Shown: piece after piece, positions 1,635 to 27,030 of the stretch
How positions within the stretch are numbered: the first letter of the stretch is position 1
Layout: every line of letters starts with the position of its first letter
DNA from: a virus
Virus record (IMG/VR): IMGVR_UViG_3300025141_000609
Location: 1-27,030 of that record
Strand: one strand, 5' to 3'
Length of the DNA: 27,030 nt
The notes under the pieces: generated by a model
Database searches by the model: none
Seen by the model: the letters and a program-made list of their open reading frames with translations, nothing else
What the model was told of the DNA's origin: nothing
Translations under genes and position numbers: made by a program

Positions 1635-3749
1635 TTAATCGTTAATTAACGATACAGCAATCTGAGTTGCAAATGCTCCTAACTGTCCGAACATAGCATC
1701 TTCCGCTGCTTGATTGTACTGTTCAACTTGAAAATTTTGCTGTTGTGCTAAGATAGCAGCTTGATGTGCTCTAGCCGCATTACTCTCGGTAATTTGAATT
1801 AAAAAATGAGCATCATCTCGATAAGCTTGCCACAGATTAGCTTGTGCCATTTCGGTCATACCAAGTACAGCCTGGGCATTTATTTGATTAGCTTGATTCT
1901 GTGCGGCTGTATTTGCAGTATTTATATTTCTCCGCCATGTTGAATTAGACTGTGCTATTTGAGCAGATAGATTAGCATTAAATTTATCTCTATCGTTTTG
2001 TATCTGATTATTAAATTTATCCATCGCATTTACCTGATCAACATTAAACTGTTCATTAGCAACAGCTAATTCTGTATTTCTTGTATCTACCTGCACTCCC
2101 AACTGTGCAAAAAATTGATCTACCTGGGCTTGGCCGGTTGCATTGAATTGATTAATAGCATTTTCAGCCGCCTGATCTGTGAACATTTCTTGCATATTAG
2201 CGTTAAAATTAATAACTTCGGTAGCTTGTTCATTAGATAGGTTAGCCATATCTATCTGCAAGAAGTTTAAAGAATTTTGTATAGCTGCTTTTGTTTTAGC
2301 ATCTGCATTACGCATGTCCATCGCAGCATAGGTAGCGGCATTTTGTAAAGCGGTCTGTTGTTTATTATTTAAATTTTGCAGTTGAATAGTGGCATATTTC
2401 TGTGCATCTGCAGCAGCGATTGGAATAGCACTTTCCTGTACAGCCTGTACAAATGCTGCTCCTGCCATCGTACTCGCACCTAAACCTCTCTGTTGCATTA
2501 TCTGTGAAGCAGCCCGTACAGGACCGGAAGCCCAGGGAGGTAGTGGGCCTCCTTCTGTAATAGAAGTGTACAACTGTTCTAGCTGCCCTTGAACCGTAGC
2601 TTTCGGGTCTAGTTCTTCAGTTTGTGCCTCTGCTATAGAATTAGCACTTACAACTCCTAATACATCAGCATAATCTATACTTACTTCATCGGATATTTCA
2701 CCATCTTCTAAAATAGCTGCCTTTGCATCTTCTACTTCATTTCTTTTTGCCGCTACTACCGTATCAAATTCTTGTTTTTCAGCATGTGATATTTTACTAG
2801 GATCTTTAGCGTGAGAAGCTGAAATTGATTGTAAATCTGATAGAGATTGATCTTCTACAAGCTCCCCCGGTTGAAGTTCCATTTTTTCTGGGATATAAGT
2901 ACCGCCAACGGGTAGTTGTGTTACAGGATTGCCCTGTTCGTCTAAAACAGGATTGCCTTCTTCATCCAATACCCCCTGGCCCATTGCTAGACCTGTCATT
3001 ACATCTATAATAGGCCGATTACGTTCTTCAATAGTCAATTGTTTTTCGGGTACTTCTTCAATTCCATGAGGAAATTTATCCGCTAAATGAGCTTTAAATT
3101 CATCGAATGCCTGTTGTGTAGGAAATATACCATATGATGTTTTCACAGGTTCTGAAGAATCAGTAACTTCAGGAAGCTTGAATAATTCTCTTAGTTCATT
3201 TGGAGTATAAGTATTATCTCCATATGTGTACATGTTAGTTTTAGAATCGTACTTGGGAAGTTGTCCCTGTTCAAACTCAAAAGTAGCCAGACCTTGTGTA
3301 ATATCGTCCTGTTCTTTTCCTAGAGCACCTTCAGAAAATTTAAATTGCCCGTGTGCTTCTGTTAGAAAATCAGTACTAAATTTTTGCTCTGCAATGTCAG
3401 GAGGTGTTGCAGGTTCTTGCCCGATAGTACCTACTTCCGGCCCGGATGCAGCCTGAAATCCCTCGCCCAATTCAGGAAGTGGATCTTGTTCGATCTTAAA
3501 CTCTGCTTCAGGGGGAGTTGTTATTTGAGGTTGTTGCGGTTCTTCCTGCTGTTGTTGCTGTTCCTGCTGTTGTTGCTGTTGCTGCTGTTGTTGCTGTTGT
3601 TGCTGAAATCTATTAAAAGCAGCTTGTGCGTCAGCCTCGTTCAGATACGTTTGATTATTAAATATAAAACGATCTCCAGCCTGAGTTTGATGTTTTTGAA
3701 CACCGCCCCCCGATTGATAATTCCGATCAGGTCTAAAATTTATAGCCAT
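1635..3749 (-). CDS. Large Gln-rich internal-virion/ejection-type protein (704 aa)
   Basis: Residues 1-30 carry NYQSGGGVQKH (10-20). A 14-residue poly-Gln tract (49-62) and a second QQQQQEE run follow. Residues 75-390 are acidic and disordered-looking, with EEGNPVLDEQGNPV repeats near 265-280. From about 400 the protein is long, helical and rich in Ala/Gln/Asn, with IMQQRGLGASTMAGAAF near 420 and many FN-spaced heptad-like segments (QFNVDQVNAMDKFNNQIQ). I recognise the RGLG.S.MA.AA..QA..E.A.PIA..DA segment from marine phage virion proteins. The long Ala/Gln helices resemble podovirus ejection proteins. The enzymatic role, if any, is not visible. It is the first gene after the 242-base gap, and its ribosome site (AGGGAA) is modest. 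Confidence 0.75.
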   Translation of the reverse strand: MAINFRPDRNYQSGGGVQKHQTQAGDRFIFNNQTYLNEADAQAAFNRFQQQQQQQQQQQQQQEQQQQQEEPQQPQITTPPEAEFKIEQDPLPELGEGFQAASGPEVGTIGQEPATPPDIAEQKFSTDFLTEAHGQFKFSEGALGKEQDDITQGLATFEFEQGQLPKYDSKTNMYTYGDNTYTPNELRELFKLPEVTDSSEPVKTSYGIFPTQQAFDEFKAHLADKFPHGIEEVPEKQLTIEERNRPIIDVMTGLAMGQGVLDEEGNPVLDEQGNPVTQLPVGGTYIPEKMELQPGELVEDQSLSDLQSISASHAKDPSKISHAEKQEFDTVVAAKRNEVEDAKAAILEDGEISDEVSIDYADVLGVVSANSIAEAQTEELDPKATVQGQLEQLYTSITEGGPLPPWASGPVRAASQIMQQRGLGASTMAGAAFVQAVQESAIPIAAADAQKYATIQLQNLNNKQQTALQNAATYAAMDMRNADAKTKAAIQNSLNFLQIDMANLSNEQATEVINFNANMQEMFTDQAAENAINQFNATGQAQVDQFFAQLGVQVDTRNTELAVANEQFNVDQVNAMDKFNNQIQNDRDKFNANLSAQIAQSNSTWRRNINTANTAAQNQANQINAQAVLGMTEMAQANLWQAYRDDAHFLIQITESNAARAHQAAILAQQQNFQVEQYNQAAEDAMFGQLGAFATQIAVSLIND
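3540..3605 (-). repeat. Poly-Gln trinucleotide repeat (CAG/CAA)
   Basis: This is a run of CAG and CAA codons encoding 14 Gln, Glu, 5 Gln, then Glu-Glu in the 704-residue protein (residues 49-70). Within it an 18-base unit, CAGCAACAACAGCAGGAA, occurs twice in direct tandem. That suggests growth by slippage or unequal exchange. Confidence 0.9.
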
Positions 3750-23397: not shown

Positions 23398-25038
23398 TTA
23401 ATATCCAAACACTGCATCTGCCATTTCCATAGGTTTATCTTTTATCCTACGAGAGAAGCTTTCGAGGTTATAGTTCAATCTCCGCATCATCACCATGTAT
23501 CTAAGAGCATCATACGCATGATCCTCCGCTTTCGTATCTACATCCTCCGAGTTAGTCTTTGACAGAGGTAAGGTAGGTAAAGTTCTTATCAAGTTCGTAC
23601 AGGTAGAAACTACTCTTAGCCTGGGCTGTCCGGTTAGATCGTCCATTTTTAATCTACGATGTACTTCGATCTTACCCGCCATTCTATTTGAATCTGAAGG
23701 AACCCACCTAACTCCCCGATTCATCATCGTTTCTGCTATACTCGGTCCTAGACCCGTTCTAGACCAGCAAGATTTATCTAGCACAGATATCTGCATCGGA
23801 GGATCTTGAGCTTCTAGCTGTACAATCAGATCTGCTAGATCCTCTCCGGTCAGACCTTTCTTGTACAATTCCCGATAGACCCAAATATTACTGTCCCAAT
23901 CTATCGCTGCCCAGAGAACACAAGAGGGAGAACTGAATCCATAATCCGCTGCTCTTATTCTCGGCCAGTTCGTAGGTACTTCAAAAGGTTCTACAACGTG
24001 TAGAGATCTATCGAACTCAGAGAAAGCAGCACCCTCTGCTACGTCCCAATCACCTTCTAGTAACCTTCTCCGTTCTACCTCGGGAAGAGAGAGCAACATC
24101 GCTTCGTACTCTCCCGAGTGCATCAAGTACGGATTATCTGTCAATCTAGCAGGAATGAACTTCCGCTGGAACAAAGGTTCATTTGCTCTAGAGTGAGAAG
24201 GTCCGTATTTTAAAGTTTTACCAGTATCTATATCGGTAGCCCAAAAGGGTTCATTTGGTATCGCAGGGTCGATGAACATCTTCTTTATCCACCAACCGCC
24301 CATTCCTCCAGGGTTAGCACTCGCTCTCATGTAAGTTTCTATCTCTGGATCTGTAGTTCTAAGCCTCGATCTGAGATAGTTCCATACATACGGAGAGGGA
24401 TAATGACCGAGTTCATCTATACCTATCCAGGTGAAACTCTGCCCCTGGTATCTCGTAACGTCCGAATCTTTATCTACATAGGAGAAAGTAGCTGTAGCCC
24501 CGGAAGGAAACGACCAAGTAGATTTAGATTCTTTGAACTTAGCGCCTGGAAAGGCTTTCGGGTAGATCTTTCTAGACTGGTCTATAAGCTCGGTCAGTTC
24601 GCCCAGAGTACGCCTGAGTAGTAAAGCACGGTGATTGCCATTAGCAGCGAACCTAAGAAGATCAACCAACATTGCATATGATTTACCTCCTCCTGCTGCT
24701 CCTCCGTACAGAACTTCCTTTTCAGGGGCTGCTAGAAAATCATCCTGAGGCCCCGGATTAGGCTTAAAAACTACTTCCGTTCCCTCTTTTATAGCATCTT
24801 TTACCGCTTTAGGTACTTGATCTAGTAGTTCTTCCGTAGCTACCCCGCCCTTTTCTAGAATGTTCAGGGCTTGTTTAGCACTTTTAGTACCAGCAGAGAG
24901 CTTTTCTACCCGCTTTTTCTGCTGTTTTAACCGCTTTTCCTTCGCTGAAACCTTTTTTCTAGCCTCTCTTCGGAGGTATTCTTTTGTAGATAAGCGGTAG
25001 TTGCCCTTTTCTCCCTCTGCTAGTTTGGGTCTAGCCAT
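23398..25038 (-). CDS. terL: Terminase large subunit (546 aa)
   Basis: It is the motor and nuclease that packages DNA through the portal. Walker A is YGGAAGGGKS (111-120), Walker B is WIGIDEL (204-210), and the coupling motif is in MRASANPGG (237-245). The nuclease domain begins with RAADYGF (D365) and has VYRELY (E389 to L391 region). EDHAYDALRYMVM near the end carries the last acidic residues of an RNase H-like site. Residues 1-95 form an unusual basic, Lys/Arg-rich helical extension (LRREARKKVSAKEKRLKQQKKRVEKL) before the ATPase. This may bind DNA or the small subunit. The ATG overlaps the upstream stop as TAATG. Confidence 0.96.
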   Translation of the reverse strand: MARPKLAEGEKGNYRLSTKEYLRREARKKVSAKEKRLKQQKKRVEKLSAGTKSAKQALNILEKGGVATEELLDQVPKAVKDAIKEGTEVVFKPNPGPQDDFLAAPEKEVLYGGAAGGGKSYAMLVDLLRFAANGNHRALLLRRTLGELTELIDQSRKIYPKAFPGAKFKESKSTWSFPSGATATFSYVDKDSDVTRYQGQSFTWIGIDELGHYPSPYVWNYLRSRLRTTDPEIETYMRASANPGGMGGWWIKKMFIDPAIPNEPFWATDIDTGKTLKYGPSHSRANEPLFQRKFIPARLTDNPYLMHSGEYEAMLLSLPEVERRRLLEGDWDVAEGAAFSEFDRSLHVVEPFEVPTNWPRIRAADYGFSSPSCVLWAAIDWDSNIWVYRELYKKGLTGEDLADLIVQLEAQDPPMQISVLDKSCWSRTGLGPSIAETMMNRGVRWVPSDSNRMAGKIEVHRRLKMDDLTGQPRLRVVSTCTNLIRTLPTLPLSKTNSEDVDTKAEDHAYDALRYMVMMRRLNYNLESFSRRIKDKPMEMADAVFGY

Positions 25039-25769
25039 TAGTATTTAGCAGTCCTTACTGAACAGCCCTTTGCATATTTTTTATTTTTGCTTTTCTTTCT
25101 TTTTTTTGTCACTTTTCCACCTTTACTTAGTGGTAAAGTATATCCTAATCTTGCTCGTTGTTCATCCAGGTTACCACGCACCTCTCCAGAAAGGGTGCCT
25201 CCAAAAAGAGGAGCTTCTGCCCCGATACGAGCTTGGTCTAAAGAAAGAGTTCCGTTTCTTAAACTTGTTTCTACCTCTCCTCTAATAGCCGATCCTTTTA
25301 TACCAAAAGGATCTTCAATTTTACCAGAAATATTAGATCTGTATATATTATCTGCAGTATTTACATGCCCCCCTGCATCTACTGTAACTCCACCCCGATC
25401 TACCAGTCGTGTAGTAGGAATTTCTATTTCTTTATCCCTGGCTAGTTTAGCAGCACCTGCTATTATACCGTATATTCTTTTCGTAGATTTTTCAGATAAT
25501 CCAAACTGTTCGCCAAAATCTTCAGCGATTTCCCTGCCGAAATTTTTTACGTTAGCCTTTCTAGTTAAATAGTCTTGATAAGGTTCGTCTTTTCTCCTAA
25601 CCCCTACTCTAACAAGTGGTAGCCACAGTTCTTTTAAGTACTTTACAGCAATTTTTTCTGCACCATCAGGGTTATTCACAAACTCTGGTGTACTCATAAG
25701 AACATCAGTAATAATACGATGTAACGATTTATTACGTTCTTTTATTCTTTTTGTTGTTGTATCAGCCAT
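25038..25769 (-). CDS. Hypothetical protein with beta-strand repeats and basic C-terminal tail (243 aa)
   Basis: Residues 1-120 are helical (KSLHRIITDVLMSTPEF, FGREIAEDFGEQFGLSEKSTKRIYGIIAGAA). Residues 130-220 have alternating hydrophobic and polar strands with short Gly turns (SAIRGEVETSLRNGTLSLDQ, ARIGAEAPLFGGTLSGEV, ARLGYTLPLSKGG), reminiscent of beta-barrel or beta-helix sequence. The end is very basic (KKRKKSKNKK) and finishes KYAKGCSVRTAKY, a tail shared with two neighbouring small proteins. Its gene lies between the two terminase genes, overlapping TerS by 8 bases and TerL by TAATG. I do not recognise the family with a function. A packaging cofactor or membrane-associated protein are possibilities. 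Confidence 0.65.
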   Translation of the reverse strand: MADTTTKRIKERNKSLHRIITDVLMSTPEFVNNPDGAEKIAVKYLKELWLPLVRVGVRRKDEPYQDYLTRKANVKNFGREIAEDFGEQFGLSEKSTKRIYGIIAGAAKLARDKEIEIPTTRLVDRGGVTVDAGGHVNTADNIYRSNISGKIEDPFGIKGSAIRGEVETSLRNGTLSLDQARIGAEAPLFGGTLSGEVRGNLDEQRARLGYTLPLSKGGKVTKKRKKSKNKKYAKGCSVRTAKY

Positions 25770-26166
25770 CCGGTGTTATATCCTTCATCTGCTTCTTAGC
25801 AGGAAGCATAACCACCCCATGAATAACCTCCGCTTGAATAGCGATATCCTGCTTCTTACCTATACCTACACGGTCTAGAATTTCATTCGCCGCTTTTAAG
25901 CGTATTTCCATATGGCTAGACCGAATATCCCCGTTCATATCCAAACCTTCCATCAGGCGGTTAGCAGCCTTTACACTGGAAGAAGCGAGCATGGACTTGG
26001 TACGATCTATGATCTCGTCCTTTAAGGTACGCACGAGCCAGGACCGTGAACTCGGCTTGTAACCAGCCTCGTCCATCGCTGCTAGAACCTGTCCTCCGTT
26101 GGACATGAGAATATTTAGAAACTTGACCTGTTTCTCTGTGTACTCTTTTTTAGCTGGTAAACTCAT
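25762..26166 (-). CDS. terS: Terminase small subunit (134 aa)
   Basis: It starts MSLPAKKEYTEKQVKFLNILMSNGGQ. A helix-turn-helix-like segment follows (VLAAMDEAGYKPSSRSWLVRTLKDEI, about 28-53). Then come helices that could form the oligomerisation core (SSVKAANRLMEGLDMNGDIRSSHMEIRLKAANEILDRVGI), and a beta C-terminus (IAIQAEVIHGVVMLP). This is the layout of TerS proteins, which bind the packaging site as rings and hand DNA to TerL. Size and the position upstream of terL support it. Its ATG shares the A of the preceding TAA stop, and its end overlaps the next gene by 8 bases. Confidence 0.82.
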   Translation of the reverse strand: MSLPAKKEYTEKQVKFLNILMSNGGQVLAAMDEAGYKPSSRSWLVRTLKDEIIDRTKSMLASSSVKAANRLMEGLDMNGDIRSSHMEIRLKAANEILDRVGIGKKQDIAIQAEVIHGVVMLPAKKQMKDITPDG

Positions 26167-26345
26167 TAACTTCTTACTAGCCTCGTACCGCCCCCGTTGG
26201 CGTATGTTTTAGGGTTTGTAATTACTATACCGGATAGATGGTCTAGATCTCGTATATTATTAAGTCCTTCAACTAATTCAGGTTTACCTGTAGTTCTAGC
26301 GATACGGTTTTTTTCTTGCTGCAATTTACTTGTTCTTTTTAGCAT
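26166..26345 (-). CDS. Small protein ending in GGGTRLVRS (59 aa)
   Basis: This short gene starts ATGCTAAAAAGAACAAG and encodes MLKRTSKLQQEKNRIARTTG, then PELVEGLNNIRDLDHLSGIV and a C-terminus KTYANGGGTRLVRS. The start lies inside the end of the upstream 48-residue gene (20-base overlap), and its stop makes TAATG with terS. The ribosome site is within an A-rich stretch and weak, so translation is probably coupled. The sequence has a helical basic first half and a C-terminal tail alignable with those of two neighbouring genes. The function is unknown. Confidence 0.6.
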   Translation of the reverse strand: MLKRTSKLQQEKNRIARTTGKPELVEGLNNIRDLDHLSGIVITNPKTYANGGGTRLVRS

Positions 26346-26472
26346 ATTTAATCATTCTCAACCGTTTTATCATTTTTTTAGCATTTTCTACAGTTTTAGC
26401 CGTGGCTTTTTTTATCCACTTTCCTTTAGAATTTTTACTATAAATGACCTTGCCTACACGTTTGTACGGCAT
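26326..26472 (-). CDS. Small basic phage protein (48 aa)
   Basis: It encodes MPYKRVGKVIYSKNSKGKW, then IKKATAKTVENAKKMIKRLRMIKYAKKNK. The layout is two short beta strands and a basic helix. I recall related short proteins (MPYKxVGK...GKW...A.K...NAKK.I.LLR) in marine phages, where no function is assigned. With about one residue in three Lys or Arg, it may bind nucleic acid. The ATG follows AAAGAAGA, and it overlaps the Cys-rich peptide gene by 19 bases and the next gene by 20 bases. It was too short for routine calling, but the family resemblance supports it. Confidence 0.65.
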   Translation of the reverse strand: MPYKRVGKVIYSKNSKGKWIKKATAKTVENAKKMIKRLRMIKYAKKNK

Positions 26473-26540
26473 TCTTCTTTTTTAGGGCATTTACAAGGAT
26501 CGCACTTGCAATTTTCACATTTACATTCCTGGCAACTCAT
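26454..26540 (-). CDS. Cys-rich metallothionein-like micro-peptide (28 aa)
   Basis: The 28-residue product has eight cysteines at 3, 6, 8, 11, 13, 16, 18 and 24, spaced C-x2-C-x-C-x2-C-x-C-x2-C-x-C. The other residues are mainly Lys, Glu, Asn and Asp (ECKCENCKCDPCKC). Alternating CxC and CxxC is the hallmark of metallothioneins, which bind zinc, copper or cadmium through thiolate clusters. There are no aromatic residues and one Arg, also as in metallothioneins. The ribosome site AAGGGGATAG lies just before the ATG, two bases after the upstream stop. It ends inside the start of the 48-residue gene. Possible roles are metal storage, zinc supply or redox control; all are inference. Confidence 0.7.
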   Translation of the reverse strand: MSCQECKCENCKCDPCKCPKKEECRTNV

Positions 26541-26542
26541 TA

Positions 26543-26764
26543 CTATCCCCTTCTATTGTATTTATCATGCCAAAATTTACTAGCTTCTCTTAACTGTGAA
26601 TTTATAGTTCTAACGAGTTCTAGCTCTTCTTTTACTATATTTGTATATCCTGTACGGATCTCTTCATTATCCTCTGTTGAAATATTTTCTAGCAGTTCGA
26701 TCATCCTATCTATATGATCACAAGAGTCTGGGGGTATGTTAGGTTTCTCGAACTTTCTAGCCAT
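26543..26764 (-). CDS. Small helical protein (73 aa)
   Basis: It begins MARKFEKPNIPPDSCDHIDRMIELLENI and continues with a Glu-rich helix (EELELVRTINSQLREASKFWHDKY). The pattern C-D-H-I-D-R followed by a long amphipathic helix containing N-x-x-L-R looks like small marine phage proteins of unknown role. A coiled-coil dimer is likely. It starts one base after the preceding stop and ends two bases before the Cys-rich peptide ATG, as expected in this tightly packed cluster. No catalytic or metal site is apparent beyond the lone C-x-H. Confidence 0.65.
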   Translation of the reverse strand: MARKFEKPNIPPDSCDHIDRMIELLENISTEDNEEIRTGYTNIVKEELELVRTINSQLREASKFWHDKYNRRG

Positions 26765-26765
26765 T

Positions 26766-27030
26766 CTAGTACTTAGCGGCTCTTACTCCTCCGCCCCGTG
26801 AGTAGTTTTTCTTTATTGTATTTTTTCTCTTTTTAATTCTACCGCCCTTTTTAATATCCTCAAAGCCTAAAGGATCTCCCATTCCAAGCCCGTAATAAGG
26901 ATTTTCCATTCCTCGACCGTGCCTATACAGTGGATTACCCCTCTCATCATACGGACCTCTGCGTAGTAACTCCATTCTTGATATTGTTTTTGGTTTTTTC
27001 TTTGGTTTTCCTGGGTAATCTGGAGTAGCA
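26766..27030 (-). CDS. Basic Gly-rich small protein, C-terminal part (start beyond right edge)
   Basis: The internal ATG at 26975 (MELLRRGPYDERGNPLYRHG) has no good ribosome site. The frame stays open upstream to the window edge (PDYPGKPKKKPKTISR before that Met), so the true start is probably outside the window. The protein is basic and rich in Gly, Tyr and Arg. A KKGGRIKKRK segment is followed by the C-terminal tail KKNYSRGGGVRAAKY, which matches the ends of two other proteins in this cluster. Disorder and nucleic-acid or membrane binding are plausible. The function is not known. Confidence 0.6.
   Translation of the reverse strand, partial: ATPDYPGKPKKKPKTISRMELLRRGPYDERGNPLYRHGRGMENPYYGLGMGDPLGFEDIKKGGRIKKRKNTIKKNYSRGGGVRAAKY

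Follow-up and report, generated by a model that had tools for sequence, protein, structure and literature searches.

A conserved metallothionein-like peptide gene ahead of the packaging genes in HMO-2011-type marine podoviruses

The DNA analysed here (the window) comprises the 27,030 nucleotides of an IMG/VR virus record, a fragment whose packaging genes lie on the minus strand. These include the genes for the terminase large subunit (TerL, 546 aa; 23398..25038), recognised by tblastn and PHROG terminase matches, and the small subunit (TerS, 134 aa; 25762..26166), recognised by tblastn homology to the annotated TerS of HTVC115P. The top tblastn matches of TerL were HTVC115P, CRP phages and HMO-2011, with approximately 47-55% identity over 84-100% of the protein, and the isolates with a matching TerL are HMO-2011-type phages of SAR11, Roseobacter and SAR116. 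By this homology and the same TerS-TerL-portal order, the window is classified as part of a marine podovirus of the HMO-2011 type. Ahead of terS on the same strand lie a 73-aa gene (26543..26764; 65-71% identical and syntenic in every relative that covers the region), a 28-aa Cys-rich peptide gene (26454..26540), a 48-aa Lys-rich gene (26326..26472; present in only some relatives) and a 59-aa gene (26166..26345; syntenic, 51-57% identity). The order is therefore peptide gene, 48-aa and 59-aa genes, terS and then terL; the initial annotation had put the peptide gene next to terS, and these two small genes in fact lie between. Many otherwise unlike small proteins around terS share a C-terminal tag, approximately KKGGK(I/V)KKNYAKGGGVRxxxY, with up to five copies per locus (window 26766-26975, 25038-25769 and 26166-26345; L005, L006, L537, L002, L027 and others), which looks like a sorting or packaging tail.

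The peptide reads MSCQECKCENCKCDPCKCPKKEECRTNV and contains eight Cys in 28 residues (29%), as originally described, at positions 3, 6, 8, 11, 13, 16, 18 and 24. Residues 3-18 form the array CxxCxCxxCxCxxCxC, the codons of which (26487..26534, minus strand) are kept in relatives, and Cys24 lies in a variable tail. The peptide is Lys- and Glu-rich and has no Phe, Trp, Tyr or His. A Shine-Dalgarno-like GAAGGGG (26547..26553, minus strand) stands 6 nt before the ATG, with purine-rich equivalents ahead of the peptide start in relatives. The ATG follows the stop of the 73-aa gene (26543) by 2 nt, and the 3' end overlaps the 48-aa gene by 19 nt, the start of the latter falling inside the peptide gene. 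Both the good ribosome site and the stop/start fit with the two neighbours were thus borne out.

The other 28 assigned genes of the window contain 0.33% Cys (28 Cys in 8,545 residues). At this background the binomial probability of at least eight Cys in 27 residues is approximately 3e-14, confirming that the Cys density is not a composition effect. The DNA pattern of the seven-Cys array had no match when the window was dinucleotide-shuffled 100 times. The only other window matches were antisense to a poly-Gln tract (3550-3603), and stricter array patterns left the peptide gene as the sole match. The poly-Gln tract, which mimics Cys-rich patterns in antisense, belongs to a 704-aa protein (1635-3749).

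A search with a pattern tailored to the window peptide identified 12 virus loci. These relatives, termed type A, encode peptides of 22-33 residues (MSCGECKCENCKCDPCECPKKDN and variants) with seven Cys, about one-third of the residues. Cys24 is peculiar to the window and missing in every type A relative; of the eight Cys to which the initial annotation ascribed regular CxxC/CxC spacing, only seven form the conserved array. Each pattern-found gene has a fixed place, with a homologue of the 73-aa gene on one side and homologues of the 59-aa gene/terS on the other. The 48-aa gene is often missing, an insert precedes the peptide gene in L002 and follows it in L003, and the gene 3' of the peptide varies (48-aa gene, 59-aa gene or an insert of approximately 660 bp). 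Because the Cys pattern itself selects for Cys, we added a TerS-anchored search. It returned 15 close relatives, 13 of which reach the region; all 13 carry the peptide ORF, and 12 retain all seven array Cys, L537 having C6Y. The initial annotation had proposed looking in relatives for the same spacing and position, with conserved Cys and variable other residues, and both the pattern-found loci and the anchored set agreed with this. Anchoring on the 73-aa neighbour gave only four loci, none of them new. Across seven distinct type A alleles, pN/pS was approximately 0.08, and five of the seven Cys codons varied between TGT and TGC with no residue change at any Cys. Among the same alleles E5, E9, N10, D14 and P15 were invariant, and positions 7, 12 and 17 exchanged Lys and Glu; some of the invariant positions were imposed by the search pattern, and the TerS-anchored set gave the same picture. 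These results show that 26454-26540 is a real gene and that selection acts on the type A Cys.

A looser pattern revealed a second, larger set in another HMO-2011-type subgroup (type B), for which the counts are lower bounds. Type B peptides have 34-45 residues (e.g. MNEKRKNRCETCECYDCDCEECNCDCHEEEEVQGVPV; a few are annotated longer, with an upstream in-frame start chosen) and combine the type A array with CxCH. At least 57 distinct core sequences occurred in at least 78 loci, with a pN/pS of 0.06 under a search expression that itself imposed Cys, Tyr/Phe and His. Among the matches listed, many type B genes lie approximately 1.3-3.5 kb upstream of terS, and others occupy a different part of the genome beside a lysozyme-like gene. 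The phages with type B upstream of terS have a TerL 50-59% identical and a portal approximately 48% identical to those of the window. Anchoring on the 59-aa gene adjacent to type B gave 80 loci. The type B ORF was present in 65 of these, with two more cut by contig ends (67/80), and it was cleanly missing in 13, where a different gene abuts the neighbour; type B is therefore an accessory gene. All eight Cys were kept in 60 of the 65 ORFs, the fifth was lost (C to S or V) in four, and one ORF has an internal deletion. The invariant non-Cys residues include T3, D10 and E13, and the AlphaFold model had low confidence (pLDDT 58). In L450, a natural loss variant, an internal deletion leaves three Cys in the type B peptide and the neighbour gene is intact. 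L314 (MSQCEDCKCENCECTECECECHNEKTDED) resembles both types, and hhalign of the two alignments gave E=2e-6, a value inflated by shared composition. From these similarities, homology of type A and type B appears plausible.

No comparable ORF was found near terS/terL in 11 annotated HMO-2011-type records (ten cultured isolates from SAR11, Roseobacter and SAR116 and one spring-water virus) whose stretches around these genes were read; three of the SAR11 phage records begin close upstream of terS and cover little of the relevant region. Relatives with 69-72% TerL identity also lacked the peptide gene. Several relatives at approximately 70% carry a different six-Cys protein (CPKCGREGCTCDPDNCDC... QDFEE) between terS and terL (L011, L024-L026, L029, L034, L035, L037-L040), and two relatives have a third kind of Cys-rich ORF upstream of terS (CxNPYCxCxGCKGCxC...CNC; 9-10 Cys; L048:769-945 and L067:1641-1775). 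Peptides such as MIEYKCENCDCENCDCENCNCENCDCK and MWRYKMCECKQCECESCNCSCCEC occur in other phage groups (L229, L295, L304, L212, L206; L239, L241, L266, L302). In bacterial genomes the generic Cys pattern hit many unrelated Cys-rich proteins among the matches listed. One protein of a Tenericutes MAG (L372) resembles GrpE and, by eye, has an apparent Cys-rich N-terminal extension of CxxCx repeats.

The initial annotation had suggested that the peptide supplies or buffers zinc or copper for particle assembly. Given the 13 clean type B absences among 80 loci and the 11 records without the ORF, assembly does not generally require the peptide, and an essential assembly role is unlikely because type B is cleanly missing in near relatives of carriers. 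What stands of the initial interpretation is that the packaging region encodes a metallothionein-like peptide and that its gene is real; the metal-for-assembly role and the late expression found no direct support.

The best Pfam match of the window peptide was a eukaryotic metallothionein family (PF12749; residues 2-24, with E=0.11 and a score of 13 bits, below the curated cut-off of 22 bits), which likely reflects shared composition only. The peptide had no above-threshold match in Pfam, NCBIfam, PHROGs or PDB, and its relatives matched no Pfam or NCBIfam metallothionein family. When three peptides served as tblastn queries to 50,697 phage records, with a low-complexity filter that may mask some matches, no hit was obtained, and Rfam gave no meaningful match. 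Our literature search, with subscription journals largely outside its coverage, found no phage metallothionein. The window peptide is small (<10 kDa), rich in Cys and free of aromatic residues, and has conserved CxC/CxxC arrays, as expected of metallothioneins in the broad, functional sense; type B departs in having a conserved Tyr and His. We file the peptide, by its architecture, as metallothionein-like and outside every named family.

From metallothionein chemistry, peptides of 22-37 residues with 7-8 thiols in CxC/CxxC spacing are expected to bind Zn, Cd and Cu(I). The fungal copper-thioneins of Neurospora crassa and Agaricus bisporus are 26 residues long, seven of them Cys (PMC4755600). 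Fungal copper-metallothioneins resemble the window peptide in size, Cys number, CxC motifs and lack of aromatics, but the spacing differs (CXCX3CSCPPGXCXCAXCP in alignable Tremella repeat units versus CxxCxCxxCxCxxCxC in the phage), and the phage-borne peptide is Lys/Glu-rich and showed no sequence relation to them in PDB/Pfam searches. Bacterial metallothioneins mix Cys and His, and PflQ2 MT of Pseudomonas has a Zn3Cys9His cluster (PMC7387436). Like SmtA and PflQ2 MT, the phage peptides are small and Cys-rich, and the extra His of type B has a parallel in PflQ2 MT; however, they are shorter, have fewer Cys and match no family. No metal-responsive regulator or transporter was noticed next to the peptide gene, nor an SmtB/ArsR-type repressor among the ORFs of this fragment record, some of which were family-searched.

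Metal-thiolate binding would best explain the array. The seven regularly spaced thiols (eight in the window) may enclose Zn2+, Cd2+ or Cu+, all soft metal ions, in a metal-thiolate cluster. Strand, spacing and overlap point to co-transcription with the packaging genes, and the location among these genes suggests late expression; the peptide would then be made inside the infected cell. We infer, and think it probable, that it is an accessory metallothionein-like peptide, co-transcribed with the packaging genes, whose most likely task is to buffer or sequester metal, or else to ease soft-metal and thiol stress, during host dismantling. One candidate benefit is zinc supply to the HMO-2011-type polymerase, which has a DnaJ-like zinc motif (PMC9038755). 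A broader proposal, which we regard as speculative, is that HMO-2011-type phages keep, with repeated clean loss, minimal metallothioneins (7-8 Cys) that control zinc or copper in infection, for example by feeding the zinc domain of the polymerase.

The invariant non-Cys residues of types A and B exceed the needs of bare metal ligation, and other Cys-rich small proteins lie near terS/terL in relatives. Both observations would fit a structural zinc module, in which one or two Zn2+ bound by the Cys pairs act as a scaffold and the peptide docks on a phage or host protein (e.g. polymerase, nuclease or terminase), inhibiting or assembling it. We consider this rather unlikely, because 7-8 thiols within 16-18 residues are too many for a single zinc finger, there are almost no non-Cys residues from which to build a recognition surface, Lys/Glu swaps are tolerated at positions 7, 12 and 17, and no partner is known.

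It is improbable that the thiols serve in infection to buffer oxidants, or to trap cysteine and sulfur, instead of binding metal. Metallothioneins can scavenge reactive species (PMC7387436), and there is one pelagiphage that increases cysteine/methionine metabolism in its host (PMC12753301), but a thiol sink needs neither regular CxC/CxxC spacing nor conserved acidic and Lys residues, and 22 residues seem a poor way to sequester scarce sulfur.

The overlap of a short Cys-rich ORF with the next gene also recalls a cis-acting leader, in which the run of Cys codons would sense cysteinyl-tRNA and control the downstream gene, the peptide itself being inert. The mycobacterial polycysteine leader ORFs (Canestrari et al. 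2020, as cited in PMC13236596) would provide a precedent; they are likewise very short, Cys-rich and overlapping with a downstream gene. Compared with these leaders, the peptide gene has no fixed downstream partner, has conserved non-Cys residues and is internal to a gene cluster. This reading is very improbable: conservation of the non-Cys residues is at the protein level, the downstream gene differs among relatives rather than holding the fixed position of an attenuator, and the gene downstream of type B persists in the 13 loci without the ORF. Moreover, no terminator-like site was found near the peptide gene on the same strand, and folding was only weakly unusual (z -1.9). Finally, loose CxC patterns yielded mostly antisense junk, including the window's poly-Gln match, and were replaced by a stricter pattern and then by Cys-independent anchors (terS, neighbour gene), but a chance ORF or antisense composition artefact is refuted here by the low pN/pS, the conservation in the Cys-independent anchored sets, the ribosome site and the shuffles.

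The gene lies ahead of the DNA-packaging genes in a set of uncultured bacterial viruses from the ocean, and evolution has maintained it. At 22-45 residues, it is of a size that gene callers with length limits tend to overlook. If the peptides bind metal in cells, they would be among the shortest metallothionein-like proteins, and phage-borne ones in a dominant marine viral group, which would suggest that infection involves metal control. The presence and absence of the gene among otherwise similar phages offers a natural experiment on when metal binding benefits a phage. If the reading as minimal metallothioneins is true, metal homeostasis would be an axis of phage takeover that had so far gone unrecognised.
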